In this document: positions 35,924 to 51,678 of the stretch, one piece after another
Numbering within the stretch: the first letter of the stretch is position 1
Layout of the letters: the number at the start of each line of letters is the position of its first letter
DNA from: Chrysaora quinquecirrha
Lineage: Eukaryota; Cnidaria; Scyphozoa; Semaeostomeae; Pelagiidae
NCBI GenBank assembly: GCA_014526335.1
Contig: JACTAT010000060.1
Location: 3,031,445 to 3,095,444 of the forward strand
Reading direction: 5' to 3'
Length of the DNA stretch: 64,000 nucleotides
Made by a program: the position numbers and the translations under genes
The notes under the pieces: generated by a model
What the model was told of the DNA's origin: nothing
Database searches by the model: none
Seen by the model: the letters and a program-made list of their open reading frames with translations, nothing else

Positions 35924-36082
35924 GGTTTTTAGCCGGTTTTTCCAGCCTCGTTTTCAAGAGTCCCAGATCCTAGCGCACGCGGCTCATACTACCAATAACA
36001 TCATTAGATCGCGCTATAGTACGACGAGTTTCTCCAACCTCAAGAGTTCCTTAACCGCTAGCCTTGTTTCCGATTTAACAAT

Positions 36083-36108
36083 CTAGAATTTTCCAGAATG
36101 TTCCAGAA
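36083..36108. promoter_or_regulatory. Heat-shock-element array A
   Basis: GAA and TTC triplets alternate every five bases: GAA 36,086, TTC 36,091 or 36,092, GAA 36,096, TTC 36,102, GAA 36,106. It lies upstream of array B in the left TIR. Confidence 0.6.
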
Positions 36109-36140
36109 CGTCCCTAAGAATCCTCTTATCTGATTGGTTA

Positions 36141-36193
36141 GAACTTTCCAGAAGTTTCCAGAAGTTTCCAGAAAGTTCCACAAGATTCTAGAA
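36141..36193. promoter_or_regulatory. Heat-shock-element array B, 11 pentamers
   Basis: Triplets start at 36,141 and every 5 bases to 36,191: GAA, TTC, GAA, TTC, GAA, TTC, GAA, TTC, CAA, TTC, GAA. Only one of 11 departs from the HSF consensus (alternating nGAAn and nTTCn). An inverted CCAAT box (GATTGG) lies directly before (36,132-36,137) and another after (36,213-36,218). It is about 110 bp upstream of the TIR gene start. Confidence 0.8.
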
Positions 36194-36226
36194 ACGAGAA
36201 ATCCGGCAATCTGATTGGTTAATAAT

Positions 36227-36260
36227 TCGAACGTCGCGTTCGATCGATCGATCTATAAAA
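36227..36260 (+). promoter_or_regulatory. Core promoter of the left TIR gene: palindrome plus TATA box
   Basis: TCGAACGTCGCGTTCGA (36,227-36,243), then CTATAAAA (36,253-36,260), about 40 bp before the ATG at 36,301. The sequence AAATCAGTTCAGTT between TATA and ATG is shared with other copies and probably spans the initiator. Confidence 0.7.
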
Positions 36261-36300
36261 TCGAAGCGTAAGACGAAATCAGTTCAGTTTGAAATTAATC

Positions 36301-36978
36301 ATGAAGAGAAGTAGTCAAGAAGCAGGTTTTCAACAAACTTCATCAAAGAAGAGAATTCGATTTTCTTGCGATGTTTGCCAGAAACACTTTAGCTCAAGAA
36401 TCAAAATGAGATGCCACATGATGTCTATACATTCAACCCCATCTATTCTATCAACTTCTCAAATTATACGTTGTGGAAAGTATTTACAACTGCCTACATA
36501 CATCAAAAACAAGCGAGCCGTTCTCAATGTACAGAACAGAGACGATAAATGCTTCGTCTGGGCAATCCTATCCCGTCTACATCCACGATCGCAGAATCCA
36601 GAGAGAGCCGCGCCATACCGGCGATACTTAGATGAACTTAACTGTGAAGGATTGACATATCCAGTAAATGCATCTGATAAAAAGATGATTGATACATTTG
36701 AAATAAACAACAACATTTCAATCAATATCTATATGGATGAAGATGGTGAAATTGTACCAGTAAGAATAACTGGAAATAAACGCGAAAAACATGTGCATTT
36801 GCTATTAGTATTCAATGACGATGGTGAGAGTCACTATTGCTGGATAAAGGACTTGAGTCGTCTTTTAGCAGGTCGTGATGGTCATAAAAATAAACGAAAA
36901 CGTTATTACTGTCCTCTATGCTTATCAGGATGTAAAACTCAAGAAAATTTGGAAAAACATAAAAAGTTATGTAAATAA
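36301..36978 (+). CDS. TIR-encoded zinc-finger / putative cysteine-protease-like protein (left copy), related to the PolB N-terminus
   Basis: A 225-residue protein. The N-terminus has a C2H2 finger (C23, C26, H39, H44) in FSCDVCQKHFSSRIKMRCH. A middle domain begins YLQLPTYIKNKRAVLNVQN and contains DDKCFVWAIL (C84) and, later, SHYCWIKDLSRL. The C-terminus has a second finger, YYCPLCLSG...KHKKLC. The same domain series forms the N-terminal part of this element's PolB (48,559-50,138). The Cys and His blocks resemble papain-fold proteases, but that function is my inference. ATG 36,301 is chosen because it follows the TATA box and matches the right-hand copy. The frame is fully open, unlike PolB. 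Confidence 0.75.
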   Translation: MKRSSQEAGFQQTSSKKRIRFSCDVCQKHFSSRIKMRCHMMSIHSTPSILSTSQIIRCGKYLQLPTYIKNKRAVLNVQNRDDKCFVWAILSRLHPRSQNPERAAPYRRYLDELNCEGLTYPVNASDKKMIDTFEINNNISINIYMDEDGEIVPVRITGNKREKHVHLLLVFNDDGESHYCWIKDLSRLLAGRDGHKNKRKRYYCPLCLSGCKTQENLEKHKKLCK

Positions 36979-37092
36979 AAGACATGTTTTTAATTTCCCC
37001 GAAACATTCGTTTAAATACTAACATTAGAATATCTGTGAATTGTTTTAAAGCTGTAAAAATTATTGTAAGTTCTACTTCACAAACTTTTAAA

Positions 37093-37506
37093 TCATATAT
37101 CGTCAAGAATCTCTTTTAACTCCCAAGTTTTTTCATGAATATATTTTCGATTGTAGTAAAAAACTTTATATCCCTCCTTTATGTATTTTCTCGCTTTATT
37201 TAGAAATTCAATGTCTTTCATTCTATGACACTCTTCAAAATTATCCAGTTCTTTTTCTAATAGGTCTAAATCGTCAAGGGAAATTTCTACTTCCTTCCCT
37301 TCAAAATAATCATCATCTCCACTTTTTCTCCAAAGCTTTTCCATAAAGGCATCTAGTTTTTCATGTGTGTTCCACTCTTGAATTTCTTCCTCATAATCCA
37401 ATTCATAAATATACTCCACTCTTTCTTCATATCGCCAGTTCTTAATTCGATATTCAAGATATCTAATTCTGTTAGTCGGGTCTACTCTCGCGTATGCTAC
37501 TTGCAT
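37093..37506 (-). CDS. Acidic protein of unknown function, divergent from the Bcl-2-like gene
   Basis: About 137 residues, rich in Glu, Asp, Lys and Tyr, predicted mostly helical, with no signal peptide or membrane segment. It starts MQVAYARVDPTNRIRYLEY. I recognise no family. A TATA box on the minus strand (37,583-37,590) lies about 80 bp upstream, and heat-shock array C (37,647-37,679) sits just beyond it, shared with the divergent gene at 37,805. The conserved promoter layout argues the frame is real. The upstream TTG in the same frame is not preferred. Confidence 0.55.
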   Translation of the reverse strand: MQVAYARVDPTNRIRYLEYRIKNWRYEERVEYIYELDYEEEIQEWNTHEKLDAFMEKLWRKSGDDDYFEGKEVEISLDDLDLLEKELDNFEECHRMKDIEFLNKARKYIKEGYKVFYYNRKYIHEKTWELKEILDDI

Positions 37507-37582
37507 TTTCGAATAAACAATCAATATGACTTCTATTTTGAATAAAGCAACTTCGTCGGTACTGAAAATCTTCTCTCCTACT

Positions 37583-37758
37583 TTTATATACTGTCTAGCA
37601 TGTTTTATAAACTGTTCATGTAAGAATCCTACAATCTGATTGGTTAGAACTTTCCAGAAGTTTCCAGAATGTTCCAGAACGTCCCTAAGAATCCTCTTAA
37701 CTGATTGGTTAGAAGTTTCCAGAAGTTTCCAGAAATCTCCAAAGTATAGCTATATAAA
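37583..37758. promoter_or_regulatory. Bidirectional heat-shock-type promoter
   Basis: Left to right: minus-strand TATA (37,583-37,590), inverted CCAAT, array C with seven GAA/TTC pentamers (37,647-37,679), a second inverted CCAAT, array D with five pentamers (37,712-37,734), and plus-strand TATATAAA (37,751-37,758). It drives the acidic protein leftward and the Bcl-2-like protein rightward. Both gaps from array to TATA are short. Confidence 0.75.
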
Positions 37759-37804
37759 TCGAGAAGAAGCAACAGTCTGGTCATACCACTCGATAGATGC
37801 GAAG

Positions 37805-38293
37805 ATGATTTCAGCGGCGTTCCTGATATTCAACGCTGTGAAGAAGGAGCGGGAATTAACTAGAAAAAATCTAGTTGCATATTCTTTGGAGAGGAACTAT
37901 GAATGTCACAAGTTAGGAGTTGTATCTTTCGAGAGACAATCAATCCCAATCAGAAGCTCATACTGTCATTGGATGCAAGATCTTCTAACATATGCAAGAG
38001 CTAGCTCTAAAAACTCAATAAAGTCTCGAGTAGAACAACATCAAGTCTTATCCAAGCTAGAAGCTAAAGGCTTAGTTTGTGAACTTTTTTCGATTATGGA
38101 TAAAGAAGGAAATTGGGGAAGAATGGCTATGTTAATGATTTTTATTGAAGAACTTGCTGATGGTTTAATGAAATATCATGATAGGACTGTAGCAACATCA
38201 TTCATAGAAGAAATAAAAGAAGAAATCAATGATAAAGCATTAGGAGATTGGGGTGAAAAGCTGTTAATTGACTCTGAATGTTTTATGTTATAA
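37805..38293 (+). CDS. Bcl-2-like protein (putative viral-type apoptosis regulator)
   Basis: 162 residues. The segment ELFSIMDKEGNWGRMAMLMI matches the Bcl-2 BH1 signature (NWGR preceded by an acidic or Gly turn). About 40 residues later, KALGDWGEKL resembles BH2. Spacing and length suit a small Bcl-2 fold. A clear BH3 and a C-terminal membrane anchor are not seen. Animal adintoviruses and other DNA viruses are known to carry Bcl-2 homologues, which block host cell death. The ATG at 37,805 is chosen because the frame upstream of it is promoter DNA (heat-shock arrays, TATA at 37,751). The frame is intact. Distant homology, so moderate confidence. Confidence 0.6.
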   Translation: MISAAFLIFNAVKKERELTRKNLVAYSLERNYECHKLGVVSFERQSIPIRSSYCHWMQDLLTYARASSKNSIKSRVEQHQVLSKLEAKGLVCELFSIMDKEGNWGRMAMLMIFIEELADGLMKYHDRTVATSFIEEIKEEINDKALGDWGEKLLIDSECFML

Positions 38294-38330
38294 GTTGTCT
38301 TAAATTACTACATTTAATTATATAGAAATA

Positions 38331-38691
38331 ATGTTAAATTCAATTAACGAGACAGAAAATGAAGTTGGTGATTTACATGATGCCTCTATCTATTTGAAAA
38401 CTATTAGAGAATATACCAATCAGTTAACAATTAAGGTCAGTTAACTAACCTCTTAGATGATAGAAATATTCAACCTCACGAATTTCTGCGAAAGTTTTTA
38501 CAAATACATCCTTTTCCAGATGGTAATGGTAGACTGGCGAAACTCTTGTATTGTTTCCTGTCTAATAAATGCATAATATGGGAAGATCAAGAATAGTATA
38601 TAAGGCTTTAAGAAAATCTGATAAAAGTTTACAAGAATATCTTAGTAATCTATACTTTTTCCAGCTTAAAAATAGTATAAAAGAGATGTAG
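38331..38691 (+). pseudogene. Fic-domain gene remnant
   Basis: The first frame (38,331-38,446) encodes a helix-rich start with GDLHDASIYLKTIREY and ends at TAA. The next frame (from 38,450) reads LLDDRNIQPHEFLRKFLQI then HPFPDGNGRLAKLL, the complete Fic catalytic motif HPFxxGNGR (38,507-38,533), and ends at TAG. A third frame supplies a plausible C-terminus, LQEYLSNLYFFQL, to 38,691. Two frame changes mean no intact protein. Fic enzymes attach AMP or other nucleotides to target proteins, and the catalytic His is present. It follows the Bcl-2-like gene by 37 bp. Frame errors in the read cannot be excluded. Confidence 0.65.
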
Positions 38692-38722
38692 TTTCTAGAA
38701 GATTCAGTTAGTCATAGCAAAA

Positions 38723-38866
38723 ATGCGTCTTATTTTACTCTTACTGACATTTATATTATCCGTATTAAGTAATACATCTTACGGATTTATCAGAGGATAT
38801 TGTAAGCATAAGCGTTGGACTGGATGTATTGGTAAAAGACTACCACCAGCTCGCTTAGAGAAATAA
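38723..38866 (+). CDS. Small secreted peptide, 47 aa
   Basis: It starts MRLILLLLTFILSVLSN, a convincing signal peptide with likely cleavage after SYG near residue 21. The mature part is about 26 residues, basic, with two cysteines (GYCKHKRWTGC) that could form one disulphide. I recognise no family. It is too short for usual gene finders, but the hydrophobic start and position in the accessory block make it credible. No own TATA box is evident; it may share the upstream transcript. Confidence 0.5.
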   Translation: MRLILLLLTFILSVLSNTSYGFIRGYCKHKRWTGCIGKRLPPARLEK

Positions 38867-38934
38867 AACAGTTATGAATATCTAAGTCATCTCAAATCTC
38901 TTATAAATACAATGCATGCACCTAGTAATTAAAG

Positions 38935-39228
38935 ATGGGTAAGCGTAAGAGGCAGGGTAGAAAGAAACAGCGTACAAAGCGACGACCCATAAAGAGAATT
39001 AGGGGTAAAGGTCTTTTTAAAAACCTTCAAAATTGGATTGTCAAAACAGCGATTGGCATTACACCATTACCAGGCTTACAGCGCGAATTGAAACCGAGAA
39101 TTAGGAAAAAGGGGTGGAAAAAAGATAAACCTTTACAATTTATCCCTAGAGAAGTCTGGAGAGCTGCGGGGGTACCAAAGAAAACGCTGAATAAATTCGC
39201 ATATGCTAAAAAATCCGATTTCAAATAA
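38935..39228 (+). CDS. Small basic virion/core-like protein
   Basis: 97 residues, very basic N-terminus (GKRKRQGRKKQRTKRRPIKR), middle hydrophobic patch (WIVKTAIGITPLPG). A TATAAATA box lies about 35 bp upstream (near 38,901). It overlaps the next gene by one base (TAATG at 39,226-39,230), so the two are probably translated from one message. Position and charge resemble the DNA-binding core proteins of Polintons and adenoviruses, but there is no motif that proves it. Confidence 0.55.
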   Translation: MGKRKRQGRKKQRTKRRPIKRIRGKGLFKNLQNWIVKTAIGITPLPGLQRELKPRIRKKGWKKDKPLQFIPREVWRAAGVPKKTLNKFAYAKKSDFK

Positions 39229-39641
39229 TGGCATCACTAGCAGGAACTATTATTGCTTCGATGATTATTGATGATATGTTAAAAAATGATGGCGGACAGG
39301 AAGCATTCGAGTTGATGAGAGGTGGCTATAAAAGGAAGTCAACATTAGAAAATTCTAGAAAGATGGGGTCCGCATTAGCGCGAGCAGCAGTTAGGCAAGC
39401 AATTAAGCAAGGAGGAAGAGCAGTGACTAGAAATATTAGCAAACAAGCCGTAAAGAAATTCGCATTAAAAGGAGCAAAAGCAGCTGCAAAAGGCGGTGCC
39501 ATAGCTGCAACTGGTTTAGGTGTTGAGACTGGTTTAAGAAAATTAGCCGGTGGCGGTGTGAGAAGAAAGCGTAGAAAGCGACTTAATGGTGGTAGGAAAA
39601 CAACCAGAAAACATAGACGAAAGAAGAGAAAAATTCGCTAA
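39228..39641 (+). CDS. Ala/Lys/Arg-rich virion protein
   Basis: 137 residues. The N-terminus is hydrophobic (MASLAGTIIASMIIDDML), the middle is an Ala/Gly-rich helix (AAKGGAIAATGLGVETG), and the tail is strongly basic (RKRRKRLNGGRK and more). This hydrophobic-then-basic design resembles pVI or core proteins of adenovirus-type virions. It overlaps the preceding gene by one base. No enzyme motif. Confidence 0.55.
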   Translation: MASLAGTIIASMIIDDMLKNDGGQEAFELMRGGYKRKSTLENSRKMGSALARAAVRQAIKQGGRAVTRNISKQAVKKFALKGAKAAAKGGAIAATGLGVETGLRKLAGGGVRRKRRKRLNGGRKTTRKHRRKKRKIR

Positions 39642-39675
39642 TCTGATTTTCAAAAAATGACGTAATAATCCTGCA

Positions 39676-39723
39676 ATCTGATTGGTTAATAATTCGAACG
39701 TCACGTTCGATCAAACTATAAAA
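39676..39723 (+). promoter_or_regulatory. Core promoter of the 327-aa gene
   Basis: Inverted CCAAT (GATTGG near 39,680), palindrome TCGAACGTCACGTTCGA (39,694-39,710), TATAAAA (39,717-39,723), then the shared AAATCAGTTCAGTT. It is the same cassette as at 36,227 and, inverted, at 50,179-50,212, but has no heat-shock array. Confidence 0.65.
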
Positions 39724-39800
39724 TCGATGCGCAAAATCAAATCAGTTCAGTTGTAACAAGTCGTCGTAGAGTGCGGAGCTTAAAAAATCACTAAAGAGTC

Positions 39801-40784
39801 ATGGCTGCAATTTACGAAGTAAGAGATGAAGAGGGCCTAATCAAGTCATCATTTGCTGTCCAACCCGGTTCTAACAAATGGTTGTTAGTGGTGAAAGATA
39901 CAATTAAAGATGGATTAGCTGTTAAATCAATGGGTATTTCTCATACAGCACTGTCTCGTCTCTTGGAAATAGTTGATGAAAACATAAACGATCAATTCCA
40001 GTTCCGCGGAGAAGATGTTGAAAGTCTGTTTGAGAAGAACAAAGCACACATTCAATCAAAACAGTACTTTGGCAGAATCACACAGTTTCTAACACTATAC
40101 ACTGAAGTTTTGAGCAAAGAAGAAGCATATGAGGATAAGCTGGAAATCTATTTGCAGAAAAATGGTGATTTCCCTCTACGACTCTGTCTTGGAATTCGAA
40201 GATGGAAGAATGAGAAACCATCAAAGACGGGAATAAATCTAAAAGAAGAAATGCTGAAAGCATTATATGGAAAGGTTGCTGATCTGAAAATGCTTCCACA
40301 ACCATCCCGGAAAAGACCAGCGAGTGATGATGATGGGCAGATTCAAAAGAAGAAAAAGAAACAAGAAGAAGAAGATCCGGCAAAGATTGATGCTCGAGTG
40401 CAAGAAGCATATGCTGAAATTCTCCTGAAATACATTTTCAACAAAGCAAAAGAGTATTGTGAAAAGTGTGCAACTACAGAGATGTGGGCAAAACAAATTG
40501 ATGCTGCTGATCATAAGCAAGATTGTATGGTACATAATGCTTTTAGATTTCTAACATTTCACATTAGTTATGTCAACTCCGACATGCTGGCTGAAGGGAA
40601 AGAATCGTTTAAGAAATCAATGTTTGATGAGCTGAAGAAGAAGAATGGTCGACTGAATCAAACAATCAAATTCAGAGTTGAAAATCTGCATGATGAATTA
40701 TCTCATCCAAGTCTCTTCACATCGATGTATCTGCTGCAAATATTGAGCAGAATAATAAACAATTTAATCATGGCATTTGCCTAG
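39801..40784 (+). CDS. 327-aa protein of unknown function with basic NLS-like tract
   Basis: An intact frame after a strong promoter. Around residues 170-190 there is an acidic-basic region, RKRPASDDD then a lysine run, suitable as a nuclear signal. A later segment (EYCEKCATTEMW ... DCMVHNAF) holds a C-x2-C pair and a spaced His/Cys that could bind zinc. No helicase, primase or capsid motif is visible. Sharing its promoter cassette with PolB and the TIR genes suggests an early, nuclear role such as replication or transcription. I do not assign a family. Confidence 0.6.
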   Translation: MAAIYEVRDEEGLIKSSFAVQPGSNKWLLVVKDTIKDGLAVKSMGISHTALSRLLEIVDENINDQFQFRGEDVESLFEKNKAHIQSKQYFGRITQFLTLYTEVLSKEEAYEDKLEIYLQKNGDFPLRLCLGIRRWKNEKPSKTGINLKEEMLKALYGKVADLKMLPQPSRKRPASDDDGQIQKKKKKQEEEDPAKIDARVQEAYAEILLKYIFNKAKEYCEKCATTEMWAKQIDAADHKQDCMVHNAFRFLTFHISYVNSDMLAEGKESFKKSMFDELKKKNGRLNQTIKFRVENLHDELSHPSLFTSMYLLQILSRIINNLIMAFA

Positions 40785-40837
40785 ACTGAGCGTTGTTATA
40801 CAGTTGTTATTCATGAGATGTTTAAAATTAGTGAACA

Positions 40838-40918
40838 TTAGTTTGATGTTATAGATATTAGTTTGATGTTATAGATATTAGTTCAATGTTATAGATATTA
40901 TTTCAATGTTGTAGCTAG
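40838..40918 (+). repeat. Short tandem repeat, about 21 bp x 4
   Basis: Four copies of ATTAGTTTGATGTTATAGAT and close variants lie between the 327-aa gene and the ATPase gene. Probably 3' UTR or spacer. Confidence 0.6.
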
Positions 40919-40983
40919 ATGTAAAGAATTTGTTATAAATAGATGTTGTCTGTTGTATGAGATGTTTAAAGTTTGTTATAAAT

Positions 40984-41657
40984 ATGAGTTATGATTTGAG
41001 ATTTAAAGCACCTTTTTCTTTGATTTTATCTGGAGTAAGCGGAAGCGGTAAAACGACTTGGGTAGAAAATCTGCTGAAAAATTATAACAATATAATTGAT
41101 AATGGCAGACAATATCCCAATCTTATGTGGATCTCGGGAACAAATCAACCGGAATTGTTTGAGCGCGTTAAAAAAAGTTTTAACGGGAATTGTAGATTTA
41201 TTACTGAGCTACCTGAAAACTTGTACGAAGAAATCGAAAGATCGGACAAAAGATTAACTATTGTTGTCGATGATTTAATGCATGAAATTGCCAACTTTAA
41301 AGATTTGGGAAAATTGTTCACAAAGGAAGATCTCATCTAAACATCAATGTAATTGTTATGATGCAAAACCCTTTTCCAAGAGGAACAGAAATGAGAAATT
41401 TAGCTCTCAATACTCAGTATCAAGTTCTTTTCAAGAATCCTCGAGATAGAAGTCAAATTAGATTTCTTGCGCGACAAATTATGCCCTCATCTCCAAAAAC
41501 ATTCCTTGACATTTACAATGATGCAACAGCAAGAATGTACGGCTACTTACTTTGTGATTTCACACAATCGATTGGAGAAGATATGAGATTTCGCACTAAT
41601 ATTTTCCCTAATGAAGCTCCTTTAGTGGTGTACAAGTCTAGAAAAGGTTATAAATAG
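40984..41657 (+). pseudogene. Packaging ATPase (FtsK/HerA type), one frameshift
   Basis: Genome-packaging ATPase of Polintons. Walker A is SGVSGSGKTTW (residues about 16-26) and Walker B is LTIVVDDLM (about residues 91-99). The first frame ends at 41,340. The second frame (to 41,657) continues with VIVMMQNPFPRG and LALNTQYQVLF, the expected sensor region and C-terminus. The shift lies near 41,325-41,345, one or two bases. A TATAAATA box is within 15 bp of the ATG. The ATG at 40,984 (MSYDLRF) is preferred over the upstream frame start because the upstream stretch overlaps the promoter. Confidence 0.8.
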
Positions 41658-41685
41658 AGATCAACAATTCTATAAGACAGTAAAA

Positions 41686-41832
41686 ATGAATTCATTTGAA
41701 AAGATAGTCATGGAGCCAAGCAAATCTGACGATGAACCAGTGAAAAAAAAGCCTAAAAAGGTTATAAATAAAGGAAGAAATGCAAGAAAAGAAAGCGACG
41801 AAGAAAGAAGTGTACAAATGTTAAATTGTTAG
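41686..41832 (+). CDS. Small charged ORF, 48 aa
   Basis: Starts MNSFEKIVMEPSKSDDEP, followed by a Lys-rich stretch. It lies between the ATPase and integrase genes and ends 19 bp before the integrase ATG. No family; it may be a leader peptide or chance frame. Confidence 0.3.
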   Translation: MNSFEKIVMEPSKSDDEPVKKKPKKVINKGRNARKESDEERSVQMLNC

Positions 41833-41851
41833 AATTGTTAATTGATTTATT

Positions 41852-42897
41852 ATGAGTTTAGAAAAGTTATATTCTGATCCTTCTGTTCCGGGTTCTCTCG
41901 GGGGTTTAGATAAAGCGTATAGAGAATTCAAAAAAGTAATTCCTAATTTGAAAAGGAAAGATGTTGAAGAATGGAGTAAAACTAGTCTTGCCTATTCGCT
42001 GCACAAACCAAGTAGGAAGAACTTTAAACGGGAGCGGATACTAACCAATAACATTGATTATTTGTGGGAATGTGATCTTGTTGATATGACGCATTTGAAA
42101 AAAGAAAACGACAACATTACCTTCCTCTTGTGCTGTATTGATACTTTTAGCAAGTATGCGTGGGTAAAGCCTCTAAAAAGAAAAACTGCAAAAGAAATTG
42201 TCAATGCGTTTAGAGAAATTTTATCCGAAAGAAAACCTAAAAAGGTACGATCCGACAAAGGCAGCGAGTTTATAAACAAAGAATTCCAAGCTTTGTTGAA
42301 GAAAAACGATATTGGATTTTACACAGCAAATAATGAAGTAAAGGCAGCAATTGTTGAACGCTTTAACAGAACATTAAAAGGACGAATGTATAGATACTTT
42401 ACAGCACAAAATACGTTGAGATATATTGATAATTTGCAAGATTTTGTCAACTCATACAATAATACATATCACAGATCGATTGGTATGAGACCTTCTGAAG
42501 TCAATCAAGACAATGTCGACACTGTTCGAAAAAGATTGTTTAAAAAAGAAACCAGAAAAAATAAAAAGCTTTTCAAAACTGGAGATTGAGTTTGAAGAAG
42601 AGAATGTTTAAGAAAGGTTACTTGCAAAATTACACTGAAGAAATATTCAAGATCAGTAAAGTCTTTAAAGAAAGATATCCAGCAATGTATGAAATTGAAG
42701 ATCTACAAGGTGAAAAGATAGTTGATCGTTTCTATAAAGAAGAGCTACAACGTGTGTATCTTCCAAAAACATTTGTTGTCGAACAAGTGTTGAAAACTAA
42801 GAAGAAGAGCGGCAAAAACTTCTATTTAATCAGATGGAGAGGTTATCCTCCACAATTTGATGAGTGGGTAGCTGAAAGTCAATTGGAGACAATATGA
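41852..42897 (+). pseudogene. Polinton integrase (DDE) with C-terminal chromodomain, one frameshift
   Basis: Retroviral-type integrase that inserts the linear element. Frame 1 (41,852-42,589) holds the catalytic core: D75 (WECDLVDM), D135 (VRSDKGSEF) and E169 (AAIVERFNRT). Frame 2 (to 42,897) continues with KGYLQNYTEEIFKISKVF, an SH3-like region, and a chromodomain (FVVEQVLK ... YLIRWRGYPPQFDEWV). The break is at about 42,585-42,595 within the GD motif. All key residues are present, so one or two bases separate it from an intact gene. It ends with an ATGA overlap into the next gene. Confidence 0.88.
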
Positions 42898-43928
42898 TTG
42901 ATGAAGAATTCGATTTGGTTCTTCCTTCGGGATTTGCTACCGATAGAATGAAATTAGTAGATTTCACAGTTGATTTACCTCACGTATTTCAATTAAACAA
43001 CAAGAGAAAGTGGGAAATGGCATTGTTACAAATGACGTTGCCGGATAGAGGAGAAAAATCACTACAAGATCAATATTGGTTTTCAATTGCAAATGAGTAT
43101 GTAACAGTCACGGATGAAGAGGGAAAATTGATTGATTGGGGTATAAATGATTTTTTTAATGAAAAAATCTATCTTGATAAAGAAATTATTGAAACACGCG
43201 ATAATACTCTCATGTATTATGAATTCAAAAGGCTTTTCAATGATAGGGTATTGAATTTCCCTGAGTTTGGTTATGAGTTGAAAAACATGTTATCAGTATC
43301 ATTGATCGGTGGAAAGATACAGTTTGAAATGAAAGATGATTTGAAATCATTGGGATATTCAACATATCACGGTAAAACGATGAAATTTACCAGTGCACTT
43401 CTCATGAAATTTTCAAGACCTTTGGCACATTTCCTTGGTTTGGAAGATCAAATGAATAACACATTGCCAAATGGTTCAACATTAACATACTTTGAATACA
43501 AGACTTCTGACAGTATTCAACCTCACCAGGCTATGTATCTGATTGTATATAAGACGAAGGCAGATGGAGATCCGTTAACTGGAGGAAAGATCAACTGTTT
43601 GAGTAGAATAAAGGACGGTGTTCATTTAAATGAACATACATCTATAAATATAGAATGTGATCTATTGGAAAGCAATTATCTTGGTGGTATTGAGAAAAGG
43701 CGAGTTTTGAGAAAACTAACATTTTACGATACAGATCTCGATACATATGTTAGATATTATGCTCCAAAGAATATAATTTTCACACCATTGGAGAGGTTGC
43801 AGTTTCAACAAATTCCAATACGATTGGTAGATGATGAAGGGAATCTTATAAAATTAACATCTCTCTATTCCGCAAAGCAATATATTGGAGAAACATCACT
43901 AACAGTTAGAATTAGACCGGTAATATGA
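42894..43928 (+). CDS. Minor-capsid-like protein, 344 aa
   Basis: An intact frame overlapping the integrase stop by ATGA. It opens MIDEEFDLVLPSGFATDRM. The phrase NNKRKWEMALLQMTLPD is shared in form with the next gene (LHGKWEVALVEMVY), so the two are paralogues. Polintons carry minor capsid (penton-like) proteins at this position, and the predicted beta-rich character fits. Assignment is by context; there is no diagnostic residue. Confidence 0.6.
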   Translation: MIDEEFDLVLPSGFATDRMKLVDFTVDLPHVFQLNNKRKWEMALLQMTLPDRGEKSLQDQYWFSIANEYVTVTDEEGKLIDWGINDFFNEKIYLDKEIIETRDNTLMYYEFKRLFNDRVLNFPEFGYELKNMLSVSLIGGKIQFEMKDDLKSLGYSTYHGKTMKFTSALLMKFSRPLAHFLGLEDQMNNTLPNGSTLTYFEYKTSDSIQPHQAMYLIVYKTKADGDPLTGGKINCLSRIKDGVHLNEHTSINIECDLLESNYLGGIEKRRVLRKLTFYDTDLDTYVRYYAPKNIIFTPLERLQFQQIPIRLVDDEGNLIKLTSLYSAKQYIGETSLTVRIRPVI

Positions 43929-44275
43929 ATGTAACTTTAAATAATAGACATGTAATTTTGTTAATCCACTTCCAGTGGATACAAGTTGAAATGTAGCATG
44001 ATTGCTTGTACGCTATATCGAAAAGAAAAGATGAGAATGAAAAGTGTTTGCTGTTTGTTGTGATTTCATTATAAGTAAGGATGCTGTTCCTCTGTTGGGT
44101 CTAGTTATTGACGATTCACAATCGATTCATAGATCAACTATAAATCCTGCATCGTATAGAGTAACAAGATCTCATATAAAATCATTTGATATTAAAATCA
44201 TCAACTGGGAAACGTTGGAAGATATATCGGATAAATTTGAAGACAATTGTCAGATTGACTTGTTTTTCAGCAAAG
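43929..44275 (+). other. Degenerate spacer between minor-capsid-like genes
   Basis: An open frame at 44,044-44,283 lacks an ATG and is preceded by a stop at 44,038-44,040. It reads like coding sequence (PLLGLVIDDSQSIH) but I recognise nothing. It may be a remnant of a small gene. Confidence 0.35.
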
Positions 44276-45282
44276 ATGATTAATGACTTTTATCTTACAT
44301 GTACCAACGATTCAGATTCAGCAATAAAACTTAAAGAACAATTACATTTACATGGAAAATGGGAGGTGGCATTGGTGGAAATGGTCTATGAACTGAGCGA
44401 TAGATTTGTATTTAATCCCGCAGAATTCAAATATGGGAAATATGAACCCTGGCGAATGATGGGATTTTTCCAAATTGGTACCGACAAGGTTGGTTTTGAA
44501 GATTTGAACGTGAGATTGGTAATATCTGATGAATATACAAAGAAATGGAATCAGGCAGCTGATAAGCGCGAGTATTATGTACGTCTTAGTCACCTTATTG
44601 GTGAAATCTCAGAGGGGAGATGTCGTTCACAAATTAACAATGAGAGAAATTGTTTCAATTATGAATGAAGACATTCGCGCGCAAGAGGGAAGAATAAAAG
44701 AATATGTAAAAGAATTAGGTTTGCCTTACGAAGATCTGCCACAGTTTTCAATTGTAGATTCAAAAAATCAAGATAACCTTTCCAAAGTACGTTAAAAGAG
44801 TTGCATTGGGAAAAGATTTGTGCAAATTGTTTGGTTTCGTTGAAGCTACAGAGGAATATAATAAAAACATGAATAATGTTTATTACAGAGATGTGAGATG
44901 GACACCATGTCCATTTACTGGAACTTTTCTAGACAAACCATTAACAGATTATGTATTCAATGCAATCGAAAGAACGACTGATGTGGTGGGTGATGAACAT
45001 TTCCAAGTCAATGCAGAAGGGAAGAATATGTTTATATATTGCTCGTTGTTAGACTATCGTGTAGTTGGAAAAATTAGCACGCCACTGTTACGCTTCATTC
45101 CGTTGAAAATTAACAAGCACGTTGTAAATTTTGTGGAATTTGAAAATTTGTTCTATTATCCATTATTGTACAACGATATCAACGAATTTACTATAAAAGT
45201 CTACAACGAGTTGGGAAAAGAGATACAATTCTACAAAACAAAGACAACATTCTTGCTACACTTTAGAAGAAAACATGTATGA
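44276..45282 (+). pseudogene. Second minor-capsid-like gene, two frameshifts
   Basis: Three consecutive frames make one protein. 44,276-44,615 starts MINDFYLTCTNDSDSAIK and includes GKWEVALVEM. The frame then shifts near 44,615 and continues GDVVHKLTMREIVSIMNEDI to 44,795. It shifts again near 44,775-44,800 to KRVALGKDLCKLFGFVEA, ending at 45,282. It is a paralogue of 42,894-43,928 by the shared KWE(M/V)AL motif. The stop overlaps the next ATG (GTATGA). Confidence 0.6.
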
Positions 45283-45835
45283 TTTCCCAATTTACAAATC
45301 AACTCCGTATTTTTACACCTACCAGCGTGGAAGAGGAGTAGGTAGTATTTTCAGGAAAGCCGGATCTATTTTTAAAAGAGCTGTTAAAGCTGCAATGCCA
45401 ACAATAAAGAAACAAGGTGTAAAAGCTGCTGAGAAAATTTTAAAACCTGTTTTAGAAGAAGAAGGAGAGAAGGCAGTCGATCGGATATTAGCTGGTGAGA
45501 ATGTTGGAGAAGTTGTTAAAAATACTGCCAAATCTTCTATGAGAGGAATTAAAAGGAAGGCTACTGAAGAAATCGCCGATGTTGTGAAGAAATATGTCAA
45601 GAAATCGACTGCTGGTAAGAAATCGACTGCTGGTAAGAAATCAACTGCTGGTAAGAAATCGACTGCTGGTAAGAAATCAAGAGTTCGTCCTAAAAGATCT
45701 ATAAAAGAAAGCACCATGAGAGGGATATTCATACCTAAGCAGCCGGTGAAGAAGAGAAGAGCTAAGAAAGCTAAGAAACCTGATTTGAAAAAAACTTTGT
45801 TGAAGAAACTGTTGAAGAAGAATTTGCAACAATGA
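45275..45835 (+). CDS. Core/minor virion protein (PX-like) with KKSTAG repeats
   Basis: 186 residues. The segment YQRGRGVGSIFRKAGSIFKR is the hallmark start of a Polinton/adenovirus-type membrane-active or core protein, followed by a helix (KQGVKAAEKILKPVLEE). Near residues 108-132 there are four direct GKKSTA units (18-bp DNA repeat at about 45,599-45,676), then a Lys-rich tail. It overlaps both neighbours (ATGA at 45,832), so it sits in a polycistronic-like block. Confidence 0.7.
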   Translation: MYDFPIYKSTPYFYTYQRGRGVGSIFRKAGSIFKRAVKAAMPTIKKQGVKAAEKILKPVLEEEGEKAVDRILAGENVGEVVKNTAKSSMRGIKRKATEEIADVVKKYVKKSTAGKKSTAGKKSTAGKKSTAGKKSRVRPKRSIKESTMRGIFIPKQPVKKRRAKKAKKPDLKKTLLKKLLKKNLQQ

Positions 45836-47142
45836 GCATAAAGCCAGAATATACTGAATGTCCTAGTGAAAGTTTGGATTTATTCTGTCCACCAGTAATT
45901 CAAAACGATGTCAAGTATTTTAAAGATGTTGAATATTTTCCACAAACTGCTGCTCTCAATGCCTCAAAACAAACTGTTGTGTTTGACATTCCTGCTCAGC
46001 CTGATCATATGATTGACTTGAATCATTCTTATTTCGTCTCGACTCTGCCTATTAAAAGAGTCGATGGAAGTAATATTGGAAAAACCACTGCAGAATTTGC
46101 TGGAGTAATAAATAATATTGGTCAATCCATGTGGAAGCAGATAGAGTTGGTTTTGAATGACACTCCCGTCACAGAAGCAAATGGAATGTATGCCTATCAA
46201 TCTTACTTGGAAACAATTCTGACGTTTGATGAAACCAGAGCTAAAAACTATTTGAAAATGACAAACTGGGTCAGTGATACGATTGGCAAAGAAAATGTTG
46301 GTTTTCCAACAACCGCAACGTTAAAAAATCTGGGTTTAAATGCAAGATCTGCACCATTTGACGAGAGTGAAAAGGTTAAAGTGTTGACAAAACCTCATGT
46401 TAATATTTGCAATCAAAGCAAATACTTGCTGCCTGGTGTTCGTCTTCAATGGCGATTGAGTCCAAACAGTGATGTGTTTTGTTTGATGAGAAAGACTGGA
46501 AACACTTCGCGCTTATACATTTCCGAAGTGAAACTGGTGCTTCGTCACATACATCTTAAAGATGATGTATTGAAAGGAATTGAAAGAACACTGATGAAAA
46601 CGAATGCGGTTTACCCAGTCTGTCAACCTCACATGGCAAGCTACTTAATCAATGCCGCAACAACCAACTGGGTTCAAGATAATGTGTTCAATGGAAAGAT
46701 TCCAAACAGATTGTTTTTTGCGTTGGTTGATAATTCATCATTCAATGGAGCGGATGAAGGAAATCCGTTTGAGTTTGAACATGTTTCTGTTTCTGCCATT
46801 CAAGTGACTGTTGACAATCAAGAAATTACCCCACCTCTAAGATTGAATTATGATGATGATGATTACTTTGATGCCTACAGCCGCTTGGTGACCAGCTTGA
46901 ATAATTCACCTAGTCTAATTGATTATGATAGATTCAAACAAGGATCGGCAATCTATGGGTTTGATTTGACACCAAAAGGAAACTGTGCAGATGAGCAATA
47001 TTTGCTTAAAAGAGAGGGTAATCTGAGAATCAGTATAAATTTTGCAAACGCTGTTGACAGTTTGATGAACATTGTAATTTTGGGTGAATTTGATAGAGTC
47101 ATTCAAATTGATAGTCATAAAAACATCATTCGAGATTGGTAA
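45832..47142 (+). CDS. Major capsid protein (double jelly-roll)
   Basis: 436 residues, frame intact. It opens MSIKPEYTECPSESLDLFCP. Landmarks of Polinton capsid proteins: the N-terminal ESLDLF phrase, INNIGQSMWKQIELVLNDTP, ANGMYAYQSYLETILTF, and the late LRISINFANAV block near the C-terminus. Length and order match the Polinton major capsid family (relatives are often annotated F54H12.2-like in animals). It overlaps the preceding gene by four bases and is followed at once by the protease. This is the best-preserved structural gene in the element. Confidence 0.87.
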   Translation: MSIKPEYTECPSESLDLFCPPVIQNDVKYFKDVEYFPQTAALNASKQTVVFDIPAQPDHMIDLNHSYFVSTLPIKRVDGSNIGKTTAEFAGVINNIGQSMWKQIELVLNDTPVTEANGMYAYQSYLETILTFDETRAKNYLKMTNWVSDTIGKENVGFPTTATLKNLGLNARSAPFDESEKVKVLTKPHVNICNQSKYLLPGVRLQWRLSPNSDVFCLMRKTGNTSRLYISEVKLVLRHIHLKDDVLKGIERTLMKTNAVYPVCQPHMASYLINAATTNWVQDNVFNGKIPNRLFFALVDNSSFNGADEGNPFEFEHVSVSAIQVTVDNQEITPPLRLNYDDDDYFDAYSRLVTSLNNSPSLIDYDRFKQGSAIYGFDLTPKGNCADEQYLLKREGNLRISINFANAVDSLMNIVILGEFDRVIQIDSHKNIIRDW

Positions 47143-47144
47143 TT

Positions 47145-47630
47145 ATGGATGATATAACGATTAATAACTTACTTGTAAAACGTGAAAAGCTACCTCATTT
47201 CCATGGTGTATTTGGGAAAGATGAAATCAAAAACATCGACATTCATTCTCTACCTTGCTCATTTATTTTCAATGAAGATAATTTTACTGGTAAAGGAACC
47301 CACTGGGTAGCTGTCTATATTGCTGATGATGGTCGATTGGATTTCTATGATTCGTTTGGTGAACCTCCTATGTTGAAAGAATTTCTAGATTTTATTAGAC
47401 CGTTCCAGCTCGCTTATAACAAGGTTCAAGTTCAATCCTATGAGACTGCTACATGTGGACAACATTGCATATTCTTTCTAATCAATAGAACAAAAAACAT
47501 TTCAATGAACTCAATGGTTAATAAATATTTCAACATTCAGAACAAGTTAGATAACGATTTATTTGTTTACAACTATGTTAAACGAAGATATAATTTAAGT
47601 TTGTTAAAACAATTTGTTACAACAGTTTAG
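47145..47630 (+). CDS. Adenain-like maturation protease
   Basis: 161 residues, frame intact. The catalytic set is visible: H53 (GTHWVAV), D69 (FYDSFG), Q97 seven residues before C104 (SYETATCGQHC). The Q-x6-C spacing matches adenovirus protease. It would cleave capsid and core proteins during maturation. The ATG at 47,145 is chosen because the frame before it has no ATG. It ends convergent to PolB, with a TTGTTACAACAG repeat (47,606-47,680) between. Confidence 0.88.
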   Translation: MDDITINNLLVKREKLPHFHGVFGKDEIKNIDIHSLPCSFIFNEDNFTGKGTHWVAVYIADDGRLDFYDSFGEPPMLKEFLDFIRPFQLAYNKVQVQSYETATCGQHCIFFLINRTKNISMNSMVNKYFNIQNKLDNDLFVYNYVKRRYNLSLLKQFVTTV

Positions 47631-47686
47631 AATAATGTTACAACAGTTTAGTTTAGAATATTGTTACAACAGTTTGTTAAAACAGT

Positions 47687-50138
47687 TCAATCAATGTTTT
47701 CTTCTTCGCAGCGTCTTTCTAGCGAATAATGTCCATATGGCAGCGTGTTAAATCCATCATCAAGAATGTATCTTTTATCATCAAAGGGATTCAGCGATGC
47801 CTTTTTTCTTTCCGTAGTGTAGATGGTGTGACAGTGTGATTCAATGTTGCGTTGAATGTGTGCATCTGCTCTCATTTCCATCAAGCATTTCACATAATCT
47901 TCATGCTTCATTTGCTTCTTCACAACATACTTTTTGATTCCTTCGCTTTTTTGATTGTATTTCCATCATTGATTTGGCAGCTATACATCTTTGATCTCAA
48001 TCCAACAAATTCTTTCATTCCCACACCACCAAGCTCATCTTTCATTTTCCCAATAACTTTCTTGTTTCTTGTAGAGTAATTTGGATGTTCTTTATCATAA
48101 TTGCTGAAATCGAATCCATCGTCGTGATCTTTCAATACTTTATCGACTTGATCTTTAGACATTGGTATGTCATAGATGAAACTATCAGTATCCATGTAGC
48201 ATAGCTCAACATTTGGAAGGTTTGGCTTTGCAAAGTTATAGTGGAAATCATACATCAATGTTTTGCTAATATCCAATATGCTGAAACCAATATACATTGG
48301 TTTGTTGAGTATAACTTTCTTCTTCTTTTTCTCAACCAAAAGCGTGTCTTCGTTGATTTCAATTACTCCGTAAAAGTTTGGATTTCTTACCCATTTTCTC
48401 AAGACTTCTCCATCAGTACAGATTTCAAAACGTCCATGATTTCTTACATTTTCCATTTTTCATCCCAAACACGGAATTGTTCATCAACTTGAACAGATCT
48501 TTTTCAAAGTCGTTTCTTGCAACAGTTCTCTTCTGGGTATTAAAATCAATGTATTCTTTCAACCATAGATCGGGATCGTGTGAGTGTTTGCTATTATATC
48601 TAGATGTTTGAAGTTGCAATACTTGCAAGCTGGTCCTCTGTATTTCCCAGTAATGTGGCAATGATCTTTGACTTTTCTTCTATTGTTACCATCAAATAAC
48701 TGCTTGCAGCAATAGCAGTGTGTAGCCATATCATGTCTTGCATTTTCTTCGGGTGTTAATCTAATCATCGGCATGGTTTTCTTGAACACTGCTCGGATTT
48801 CCACATTCAATTCATCTAGGCGATTCATCAACACCTCCATGCAGTCTTCACCAGTATAACATTCCAGCGGTTGTTGCCATCTATCATCGATTGATTTAAC
48901 ATAAATGCAATAACTGATCGGCTTGTGTTCTTGATAAGCAGCTCTTTTGTTTGAGCTTTCCAGAATGGATTCAGTATCTGCATAGATGATAAATGGTAGC
49001 AAGCTCTGATGTTTCAAATGTTCAAACTTTAATTCCGTATCTTGAGGATATTCAAAAGCTTGAGGGGTCTTACATAGTTTTTCATGCTTTTCCAAATTTT
49101 CTTGAGTTTTACACGATGATAAGCATAGAGGACAGTAAAAACGTTTTCCGTGATGTTTGTGACCATCTCGACCTGCAAAAAGACGGCTGAAGTTCTTTAT
49201 CCAGCAATAGTGGCTCTCACCATCGTCATTGAATACTAATAGCAAATGCACATGTTTTTCGCGTTTATTTCCAGTTATTCTTACTGGTACAATTTCGCCA
49301 TCTTCATCCACATAGATGTTGATTGAAATGTTGTTGTTTATTTCAAATGTATCAATCATCTTTTTATCAGATGCATTTACTGGATATGACAATCCTTCAC
49401 AGTTAAGTTCATGTAAGTATCGCCGATACGGTGCGGCTCTCTCTGCATGTGTTGATTGTGGATGTAGAGCGGATAGAATTGCCCAGATGAAGCATTTATT
49501 GTCTCTGTTCTGTACATTGAGAACGGCTTGCTTGTTTTTGATGTATGTAGGTAGTTGTAAATACGTTCCACCACGAATTGCATCATAATCAAACATCTTC
49601 ACTTGTAGTTGGGTAAACTTTGTAAATATCCAACCACTTCCATTCTCCAAGAATTCATCAACCTTGTCTCGTAGTGTGTTGATAGCTTCAACTACCTGAT
49701 CTTCAGCAACGTCATACTCTGACCATAGAAGCGTCTGCACGGTGGTTCTGAATGTGGGTGGTGGTTCTGTAACCATAGACTTATCACCATACTTTTTAAA
49801 TTCGGCATCAATAGTGATATAATACTTCATCCCCTGCTTGTGATCTGGCAATTCTTCTTTAATTTCTCGAATACTATGCTGTGCGATTCTTGCCCAGTCT
49901 TTGATATCTTCTTCTTTGATATATATTCTGAATGCTTTCTCATCCATCTTGTTCATGTTCTTACCTTCACCGACCAATTTATTTTGTTCTGCTTCTGACG
50001 GATGTATACCATGTGCTGTTCGCTTATGTGATGCGTGATTTAACATTCTGTCAAACAATTTCTCACATACATCACAAGCGATTTTTCTTCGCTTACTATT
50101 ATTGGCGCTGAGCTCTCCTCTTCGTGTGACCTCTTCAT
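47687..50138 (-). pseudogene. Protein-primed DNA polymerase B, internally deleted and frameshifted
   Basis: The N-terminal frame (50,138 to about 48,600) has a C2H2 finger (CDVCEKLFDRMLNHASHKRTAH), the domain shared with the TIR genes, the exonuclease I motif FIIYADTESIL, and a Cys-rich [20 protein letters not shown]. It then jumps within a few residues to [17 protein letters not shown] (polymerase motif B). YMDTDSF (motif C) follows. Exonuclease II and III and motif A are missing, so several hundred codons are deleted near 48,600. Further breaks lie near 50,100 (start), 48,450 and 47,920. The C-terminus (DDKRYILDDGFNTLPYGHY) is at 47,687-47,923. It cannot be active. Confidence 0.88.
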
Positions 50139-50178
50139 GATTAATTTCCAACTAGACTGATTTCGCCTTACGCTTCGA

Positions 50179-50212
50179 TTTTATAGATTGATCGATCGAA
50201 CGTGACGTTTGA
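50179..50212 (-). promoter_or_regulatory. PolB core promoter: TATA box and palindrome
   Basis: On the minus strand CTATAAAA (50,186-50,179) follows the palindrome TCGAACGTGACGTTTGA region (50,196-50,212, one mismatch) and precedes AAATCAGTCTAGTT. It is the same cassette as at 36,227 and 39,694. Confidence 0.65.
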
Positions 50213-50245
50213 ATTATTAACCAATCAGATTGTAGGATTTCTCGT

Positions 50246-50497
50246 TTCTAGAATCTTGTGGAACTTTCTGGAAACTTTTGGAAAGTTCTAGCCAATCAGA
50301 TTGCAGGATTTCTCGTTTCTAGAATCTTGTGGAACTTTCTGGAAACTTCTGGAAAGTTCTAGTTATCCAGATTGTAGGATTATTATGTTATTTTATTTCA
50401 TAAACGATTCGAACGTCGCGTTCGAATTATTATTACGCCATCATAATCAATCAGATTGTAGGATTTCTGGAAACTTCTCGAAACTTCTGGAAAGTTC
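50246..50497. promoter_or_regulatory. Heat-shock-element arrays E, F and G upstream of polB
   Basis: Array E: nine pentamers from TTC 50,246 to TTC 50,286, with TTG and TTT as the only departures. Array F: nine from TTC 50,317 to TTC 50,357, with TTG once. Array G: seven perfect ones from TTC 50,465 to TTC 50,495. CCAAT boxes sit beside each (near 50,221, 50,291, 50,499), and a further palindrome copy lies at 50,409-50,425. Spacer bases vary while triplets do not. Confidence 0.78.
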
Positions 50498-50717
50498 TAA
50501 CCAATCGGATTGCAGGATTCTTACATCATTTTTAATGCTGCGAATCTAACGCTGAGGAGGAGGAGTCTTTAGTAATTAAACTCTTGTTAATCTTGAGTAA
50601 TTGAATTATAACAATTTCTGTAGAACTTACAACAATTTTTACAGCTTTAAAACAATTTATAGATATTCTAATGTTAGTATTTAAACGAATGTTTCGGGGA
50701 AATTAAAAACGTGTCTT

Positions 50718-51395
50718 TTATTTACATAACTTTTTGTGCTTTTCCAAATTTTCTTGATTTACACATGATGTTAGACATAGGGGACAGATAAAACGTTTTC
50801 CATGATGTTTATGGCCATCTCGGCCTGCAAAAAGACGACTCAAGTCCTTTATCCAGCAATAGTGACTCTCACCATCCTCATTGGTTATCAATAGCAAATG
50901 CACATGTTTTTTACGATGAACTTTAGTTATTCTTACTGGTACAATTTCACCATCTTCATCCATATAGATGTTGATTGAAATGTTATTATTCATTTCAAAT
51001 GTATCAATCATCTTTTCATCATCTGCTTTTACTGGATATGTCAATCCTTCACAGTTAAGTTCATGTAAGTATCGCCGGTACGGTGCGGCTCTCTCTGCAT
51101 GTGTTGATTGTGGATGTAGAGCGGATAGAATTGTCCAGATGAAGCATTTATCGTCTCTGTTCTGTACATTGAGAACGGCTTGCTTGTTTTTGATGTATGT
51201 TGGTAGTTGCAAATAGTTTCCACAACGTATAATTTGAGAAGTTGATAGAATAGATGGAGTTGAATGTATAGACATCATGTGGCATCTCATTTTGATTCTT
51301 GAGCTAAAGTGTTTCTGACAAACATGACAAGAAAATCGAGTTCTCTTCTTAGAAGAAGTTGGTTGAAAACCTGCTTCTTGACTACTTCTCTTCAT
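50718..51395 (-). CDS. TIR-encoded zinc-finger / putative cysteine-protease-like protein (right copy)
   Basis: 225 residues, intact. Same architecture as the left copy: C2H2 finger (FSCHVCQKHFSSRIKMRCH), DDKCFIWTIL, SHYCWIKDLSRLF, and a final finger with ICPLCLTSC. It differs from the left copy in blocks. The segment around ALHPQSTHAERAA matches PolB, while VRITKVHRKKHVHLLLITNED is unique. Keeping both frames open while PolB is broken suggests selection on the short protein. The promoter has the palindrome (51,450-51,466) but a poor TATA box. Confidence 0.75.
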   Translation of the reverse strand: MKRSSQEAGFQPTSSKKRTRFSCHVCQKHFSSRIKMRCHMMSIHSTPSILSTSQIIRCGNYLQLPTYIKNKQAVLNVQNRDDKCFIWTILSALHPQSTHAERAAPYRRYLHELNCEGLTYPVKADDEKMIDTFEMNNNISINIYMDEDGEIVPVRITKVHRKKHVHLLLITNEDGESHYCWIKDLSRLFAGRDGHKHHGKRFICPLCLTSCVNQENLEKHKKLCK

Positions 51396-51449
51396 GATTA
51401 ATTTGTAACTGAACTGATTTCGCTTTACGTCCCGATTTTCATAAACGAT

Positions 51450-51542
51450 TCGAACGTCGCGTTCGAATTATTAACCAACCAGATTGTAGGATTTCTGGTT
51501 TCTAGAATCTTGTGGAACATTCTGGAAACTTCTGGAAAGTTC
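51450..51542. promoter_or_regulatory. Palindrome and heat-shock array H (right TIR gene)
   Basis: Palindrome TCGAACGTCGCGTTCGA at 51,450-51,466. Array H has nine pentamers from TTC 51,500 to TTC 51,540, with TTG once. The TATA element present in the left TIR is degraded here. Confidence 0.7.
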
Positions 51543-51636
51543 TAGATTGTAAAGGTTGTTAAATCGGAAACGAGGCTAGCGGTTTCAGACAAGGATTGTA
51601 AGAACTCTTGAGGTTGGAGAAATCATATTAAAACTC

Positions 51637-51678
51637 GTCGCACTATAGCGCGACCTGATGACGTCACTGATGACGTCA
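51637..51678. promoter_or_regulatory. 18-bp palindrome and tandem CRE sites (right TIR)
   Basis: GTCGCACTATAGCGCGAC (51,637-51,654, one arm mismatch) followed by two TGACGTCA motifs (51,659-51,666 and 51,671-51,678). Mirror image of 35,882-35,923. Confidence 0.65.

Follow-up and report, generated by a model that had tools for sequence, protein, structure and literature searches.

Why should a capsid-encoding DNA element carry, in front of several of its genes, long arrays in which GAA and TTC triplets alternate at 5-bp steps? The question is raised by one copy of such an element, to which all our array results refer, in a 64,000-nucleotide stretch of contig JACTAT010000060.1 (positions 3,031,445 to 3,095,444; hereafter the window, whose own numbering is used throughout).

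35880..51680, no strand: Polinton-type element; ends approximate, placed by the tips of its terminal inverted repeats

For counting, we took the element as 15,805 bases and the rest of the window as 48,195. A preliminary description had proposed that heat or proteotoxic stress switches on several of its genes through heat-shock factor (HSF). Judged by their sequence, the eight arrays are heat-shock elements (HSEs), and it is probable that the host's HSF uses them to drive a stress-responsive gene set consisting of the terminal-repeat genes, a predicted Bcl-2-like gene and what is likely the polymerase gene.

36086..36108, + strand: HSE array A1, 5 perfect units; starts at -215 from the ATG at 36301
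36141..36193, + strand: HSE array A2, 11 units, one imperfect (CAA for GAA); starts at -160 from the ATG at 36301
37647..37679, + strand: HSE array A3, 7 perfect units; starts at -158 from the ATG at 37805, between divergent acidic and Bcl-2-like open reading frames (ORFs)
37712..37734, + strand: HSE array A4, 5 perfect units; starts at -93 from the ATG at 37805
50246..50288, - strand: HSE array A5, 9 units, two imperfect
50317..50359, - strand: HSE array A6, 9 units, one imperfect
50465..50497, - strand: HSE array A7, 7 perfect units
51500..51542, - strand: HSE array A8, 9 units, one imperfect; starts at -147 from the ATG at 51395 (right terminal-repeat gene)

Both direct reading and a scan of the sequence found all eight arrays where the preliminary description had placed them, except that the first begins at 36086, 3 bp later than the 36083 given there. 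The arrays have 5 to 11 units, and each contains at least three contiguous nGAAn pentamers in alternating orientation. Half of them (4/8) include one or two imperfect triplets, so that the earlier "up to 11 in a row" is right only if one imperfect unit is allowed; the longest perfect run is 8. Beyond the arrays, strict runs of at least three units occur in the element only at 38693-38705 (a single three-unit match) and at 39348-39360, inside an ORF.

The spacing of the triplets is as regular as their order. Within the element, a 2-base spacer is the commonest for both TTC-nn-GAA and GAA-nn-TTC (30 and 25 occurrences), whereas spacers of 0, 1 and 3-8 bases give 2-14. STAT-like sites, with their spacing of 3-4 bases, were rejected on this ground. 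The earlier statement that spacers vary while triplets persist describes the head-to-head spacers (GAA-nn-TTC) well, with 9 kinds among 27, but the tail-to-tail spacers (TTC-nn-GAA) hardly vary: read in gene orientation they are CA in 22 cases, TA in 4 and GA in 1, and hence pyrimidine-purine in 26 of 27. HSF sites have a tail-to-tail preference for TTC-TA/CA-GAA. Could some other factor, either of the NFAT/Rel type (TGGAAA) or a zinc-finger protein that the element itself encodes, use the arrays instead? TTTCC, the reverse of the GGAAA core, is present in 16 of the 27 TTC units, and the terminal-repeat genes show weak C2H2 matches. However, the TTTCC core is lost in the other 11 units while TTC is perfect in 27 of 27, and strictly alternating triplets with 2-base spacers are the grammar of HSF. 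NFAT/Rel-like sites were set aside on these core counts, and we regard use by another factor as highly improbable.

Against 200 dinucleotide-preserving shuffles, the control suggested in the preliminary description, the arrays are far in excess of chance: the element has 7 perfect runs of at least 5 units versus 0.005 per shuffle (one run of 5 in all 200, and none longer), and the remaining 48,195 bases of the window contain no run above 3 units. A second control used DNA that should be free of HSF. No heat-shock factor of this kind reads prokaryotic or phage DNA, and the GTDB prokaryotic collection (257 Gb) yielded 41 bacterial or archaeal stretches with a perfect 7-unit pattern and IMG/VR a further 9, versus three runs of at least 7 in this element alone. 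The arrays are thus in excess over HSF-free DNA as well as over chance. All nine IMG/VR stretches were treated as controls, with ORFs inspected by eye for four of them (L004, L007, L008 and L009); these looked phage-like. The idea that the IMG/VR matches reflect HSF use by other viruses was considered and set aside. The 49 resulting control arrays are distinct by sequence only, and one that was present on both strands (L001, L008) is counted twice.

These controls bear directly on a simpler explanation, namely that the arrays amount to no more than an ordinary 10-bp tandem repeat, in decay at the end of a Polinton, and bind nothing notable. Tandem Repeats Finder calls two arrays 10-bp repeats (36140-36193 and 50465-50498) and three others 20-bp repeats, HSE-like runs are also found in IMG/VR and prokaryotic DNA, and a common ancestor of the arrays, for which we give evidence below, would suit this explanation too. 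The control arrays nevertheless look different. Self-identity at a lag of 10 bases is at least 90% in 38 of the 49, versus 87-89% for the element's three perfect runs of at least 7 units, and 21 of the 49 have wholly constant spacers. In the element's three runs the tail-to-tail spacers are pyrimidine-purine in 8 of 9 cases, versus 29 of 183 in the control arrays, and the same bias across all eight arrays also speaks against a plain repeat.

How the arrays arose, and how they have changed since, can be read from the element's internal repeats. The inverted arms and local repeats of 65 and 71 bp contain, in most copies, a CCAAT-type box followed by an array. The eight arrays are therefore copies of one CCAAT+HSE module, made through inverted repeats and local duplication, and their independent origin was rejected. 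Conservation was counted over four of the 21 inverted pairs, three of which have one arm in common. Among these, 1 of 102 triplet bases had changed, as had 6 of 30 in head-to-head spacers, 1 of 30 in tail-to-tail spacers and 21 of 228 other bases (Fisher p=0.0036 for triplets versus other bases). A count restricted to A2/A8 and A3/A7, which have no array in common, gave a similar picture, with 0 of 48 triplet bases changed versus 4 of 14 in head-to-head spacers (p=0.0018) and versus 15 of 111 non-triplet bases (p=0.006). For the first 23 columns of the eight arrays taken together, the minimum number of changes was 1 over 15 triplet columns, 4 over 4 head-to-head columns and 1 over 4 tail-to-tail columns (p about 0.01-0.02). 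The numbers are modest, yet they all point one way, toward retention of the triplets, and this avoidance of triplets speaks against a decaying repeat. The earlier claim that the arrays are not a mere 10-bp tandem repeat thus gains from the triplet-biased conservation and the spacer pattern and loses from the repeat calls on five of the eight. On balance, both the spacers and the substitutions agree more closely with HSF sites than with a plain repeat. We consider the repeat explanation very unlikely.

If HSF does use the arrays, they should lie in promoters. All eight are outside ORFs and upstream of ORF starts, in four regions. The promoter boxes described here are consensus matches only, and the upstream regions (1385 bp) were drawn around the starts after the arrays had been seen.

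36130..36137, + strand: CTGATTGG, an inverted CCAAT box beside an array; also at 36211, 37636, 37701, 39678, 50221 and 50292
36225..36243, + strand: ATTCGAACGTCGCGTTCGA, a near-palindrome lying between CCAAT box and TATA; further copies at 39692, 50196, 50407 and 51448
36254..36259, + strand: TATAAA, at -47 from the ATG at 36301
-52 from the ATG at 37805: TATAAA of the Bcl-2-like promoter, a consensus match
about 50180-50185, - strand: TATAAA of the polymerase-side promoter, a consensus match

The left terminal-repeat promoter has two arrays, CCAAT boxes, the palindrome and TATAAA. The Bcl-2-like promoter, in a region that also faces the acidic ORF, has two arrays, two CCAAT boxes and TATAAA, and the polymerase-side promoter has three arrays, CCAAT boxes, the palindrome and TATAAA; here TATAAA lies about 47 bases before an ATG at 50138 identified by eye (the scan gave 53, from a point six bases further). 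The right terminal-repeat promoter has one array and the palindrome. CCAAT and TATA boxes are thus found together in three of the four array regions, and 7 of the 8 arrays lie within such regions, which is the location expected of HSEs in RNA polymerase II promoters, as far as consensus boxes can indicate it, and another point against inert repeats. The box CTGATTGG occurs 11 times in the window versus 2.24 expected from shuffles, with 7 copies in the element's promoters, 2 elsewhere in the element (37946 and 38416) and 2 outside it. For ATTCGAACGTCGCGTTCGA there are 8 matches at 5 sites, with at most 3 mismatches, versus 0.03 expected, and it is present even in a promoter that has no HSE array (39692).

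The arrays are also selective in their placement. No HSE of at least three units precedes the ORFs at 39228, 39801, 40957, 41852, 42894, 44276 or 45832, which account for 7 of the 8 other upstream regions; the remaining one, which precedes a small ORF at 38723, contains the three-unit match at 38693-38705. From the contrast with the integrase and capsid genes we infer that the array-linked genes form an "early" class.

The element's tips carry a further type of site.

35882..35901, + strand: a pair of CRE/ATF-type sites, TGACGTCA, at the left tip, with a mirrored pair at 51659-51678

There are 5 copies of TGACGTCA in the window versus 0.58 expected, and 4 of the 5 are at the tips. Adenovirus ends likewise hold ATF sites. 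Inward of the tip sites there is a palindrome, TCGCGCTATAGCGCGA, on the left and a near copy of it on the right.

Stress may not be the only setting in which HSFs act, and the same array sequences would fit binding of HSF mainly for developmental or germline expression without heat, with stress induction secondary. HSF5, for example, has been linked to meiosis (PMC11059408), and a mobile element would in general profit from germline expression. Arrays of 5-11 units, however, resemble strong, stress-type elements, and HSF1 prefers long HSEs whereas HSF2 prefers short ones (PMC12047821). We therefore consider a mainly germline role unlikely, though it is the best of the alternatives to the stress-responsive set.

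Which genes would respond? The preliminary description assigned the arrays to the terminal-repeat genes, an acidic/Bcl-2-like pair and polB. The upstream placement agrees with this assignment, but "polB" corresponds to an interrupted frame recognized by its position and by a motif read by eye.

36301..36978, + strand: left terminal-repeat gene, 225 amino acids; C2H2-type fingers, weak matches below cut-off
50718..51395, - strand: right terminal-repeat gene, 225 amino acids; an ORF
37093..37506, - strand: acidic ORF of 137 amino acids, without family
37805..38293, + strand: Bcl-2-like ORF, 162 amino acids; PF00452, E 2.2e-4
47920..50140, - strand: third, partial copy of the terminal-repeat gene, then endonuclease VII, then a probable PolB remnant; frame interrupted

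The ORF at 37805..38293 is likely Bcl-2-like, as had been suggested, but it scores below the Pfam cut-off (22.2 bits versus 31.4 for PF00452). We found relatives in public data, one at 93% identity and three more, all four of which were used in the alignment; one homologue, P0006, matches PF00452 with E 3.1e-7 (31.3 bits). Structure comparison was less telling: the best Foldseek row for the predicted model was an unrelated protein at E 1.0, and a second comparison gave middling Z scores, with designed helical proteins among the matches. When PDB sequences were searched with a profile, Bcl-2-related A1 came up at E 0.83-0.99, ranked under BlaR1 rows (E 0.21-0.29). In the available text of the literature on Polintons and Bcl-2, we found no Polinton-borne Bcl-2-like gene; the mention of Bcl-2 in PMC6431247 concerns a planarian LTR (long terminal repeat) element, not a Polinton.

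One gene segment is present in three copies, two of them whole within the inverted repeats (36301-36978 and 50718-51395) and one within the polymerase-side gene (49070-49578), which is joined to the other two through a common 509-nt arm. The ratios of nonsynonymous to synonymous substitution (dN/dS) among the three are 0.41, 0.35 and 0.32 at dS 0.19-0.25, with 0.41 for the left versus the right terminal-repeat gene; as these genes stand behind array-bearing promoters, we count the values in favor of the stress-responsive set. The polymerase-side gene consists of interrupted pieces (ORFs 48559-50046 and 47920-48456). Its endonuclease VII part matches PF02945 with E 2.2e-6, and the pieces gave zero matches to a PolB family. 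From its position and a YMDTDS-like motif seen by eye, it is probably the polymerase gene.

Several observations weigh against a stress-responsive, HSF-driven gene set. Long GAA/TTC runs do arise without HSF, as the 41 prokaryotic and 9 IMG/VR stretches demonstrate, and 7 of the 49 control arrays (L004 included) have pyrimidine-purine tail-to-tail spacers only. Five of the eight arrays are imperfect 10- or 20-bp repeats to Tandem Repeats Finder, and GAA, perfect in 30 of 35 units, is looser than TTC. Because the arrays descend from one module, they represent perhaps one or two origins, and there are few independent events in the conservation test. In the right terminal-repeat promoter, no TATA box was found and the CCAAT box beside the array is altered (CCAAC), while the 327-amino-acid ORF at 39801 has the same core promoter without any array. 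Finally, the polymerase-side frame is interrupted and this copy of the element looks decayed, so it may be silent.

With these points taken into account, host HSF acting on a stress-responsive set is still the reading we favor, and it suggests the following mechanism. Host HSF would bind the long arrays as cooperating trimers and, when the cell's proteins are damaged by heat or another proteotoxic stress, would activate the adjacent core promoters. The early expression class so induced would include replication and an anti-death function. Duplication, together with copying from one inverted repeat to the other, probably spread the CCAAT+HSE module, and a second stress input is hinted at by the two CRE/ATF-type sites per tip. 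The element would likely benefit by leaving or replicating when its host cell is endangered, and one may speculate that the Bcl-2-like protein keeps that cell alive. In its boldest form, the proposal is that a virus-like Polinton took over the regulatory plan of heat-shock genes, with its CCAAT box, HSE array and TATA box, and copied it into several promoters, and that HSF, perhaps with CREB/ATF at the tips, is a master stress switch that jointly activates replication-linked genes and a cell-protecting Bcl-2-like gene, as the escape program of an apparent animal provirus. We offer this larger picture tentatively, as having a little less than an even chance of being right.

The rest of the element fits the class to which we assigned it.

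41852..42589, + strand: retroviral-type integrase; PF00665 (rve), 46.5 bits, above cut-off
45832..47142, + strand: major capsid protein, double jelly-roll; model pLDDT (predicted local distance difference test) 77.9, Foldseek
40957..41340, + strand: P-loop ATPase-like ORF, 127 amino acids; weak AAA/Pox_A32 matches, below cut-off
47145..47630, + strand: adenovirus-type protease, tentative; PF00770 (Peptidase_C5), E 0.01, below cut-off
39801..40784, + strand: 327-amino-acid ORF; promoter with CCAAT, palindrome and TATA, without HSE array

Three features characteristic of Polintons/Mavericks support a Polinton-type element: the rve integrase, the predicted double jelly-roll capsid protein and long terminal inverted repeats. 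The outer inverted arms (35878-35931/51629-51682) are 54 nt long at 93% identity, and the long ones (36257-37076/50620-51439) are 820 nt at 90%. The capsid model matched the PBCV-1 capsid best in Foldseek (E 1.5e-16), with Sputnik and mavirus matched too; only the fold comparison found such matches, as a capsid profile had zero matches among PDB sequences. Among 14 capsid relatives, 7 show 54-84% identity across 79% or more of the length, 2 are partial and 5 are 24-29% identical; 11 of the 14 were aligned, with the fused or partial predictions P0014, P0016 and P0017 excluded. Some of the relatives of the capsid or Bcl-2-like proteins may be the host's own. IMG/VR held no relative of the capsid protein (searched as single sequence and as alignment), the terminal-repeat protein, the integrase or the protease. 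For the ATPase-like ORF, the Pox_A32 match has E 3e-4, below cut-off.

A target-site duplication of 5-6 bp is the usual sign of Polinton/Maverick integration, marking integration rather than membership. Between the sequences near the two tips, no shared word of at least 5 bases was found; with long arms that differ by about 10%, it is possible that the duplication has been lost by decay.

A few other observations concern the element's surroundings and minor features. Its right flank contains the pol of a BEL/Pao retrotransposon (PF05380). At 40817-40916, 5′ of the ATPase-like ORF, a 20-bp unit, ATTAGTTTGATGTTATAGAT, is repeated in tandem about four times. The small ORF at 38723-38867 appears by eye to encode a hydrophobic leader and, after it, a basic tail; a TATA box and the three-unit HSE lie closely upstream. 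An Rfam search returned nothing at gathering score.

To our knowledge, what triggers Polintons is largely an open question, and they are thought to act as both transposons and viruses. An HSF switch, if real, would name such a trigger, would link temperature stress to a capsid-encoding element whose host is likely an animal, and would place beside ONSEN and the Helitrons a mobile element of a very different kind. In agreement with the preliminary description, we found no HSF- or HSE-driven Polinton/Maverick in the available portions of the literature searched, which left most subscription papers outside its scope. One adintovirus/Polinton paper (PMC11071296) does not contain the terms heat shock, promoter or Bcl, and the portion of PMC6505742 available lists one Polinton-annotated transcript among the transposon transcripts of low-pH sea anemones (value 5.95), without HSEs.

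The element resembles known Polintons/Mavericks and adintoviruses in its inverted repeats, rve integrase and double jelly-roll capsid protein; it differs in HSE-array control, not found for them in the literature searched. HSEs in DNA virus-like genomes have a precedent in the human gamma-herpesviruses, where HSF2 is found at lytic-switch promoters (PMC12047821); these are persistent DNA viruses in which, as with the arrays here, the HSF-bound element lies upstream of a gene, there the lytic-switch gene, but those promoters have two or three units, bound by HSF2, and no arrays.

Closer parallels come from HSF-driven transposons. ONSEN/COPIA78 and related COPIA elements of Brassicaceae (PMC3907296, PMC5059998) are also mobile elements whose promoters contain contiguous nGAAn units to which host HSF binds. 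In COPIA elements, sites of four units have been linked to heat induction that reaches as much as a thousand-fold, and the ONSEN heat element grew through duplication of a proto-site (PMC5059998). Those are LTR retrotransposons with about four to six units in the LTR, whereas here a capsid-encoding DNA element has 5-11 units in each of several promoters. Helitron1_CE is a Helitron-type element, not one that encodes a capsid and an integrase. Like our Polinton, this Caenorhabditis element is an animal DNA transposon with clustered HSEs upstream of a gene (in its case for the Rep-helicase), one copy having 14 HSEs in its promoter region (PMC6765114, PMC6927752). For Helitron1_CE, HSF-1 binding and HSF-1-dependent heat induction have been demonstrated.

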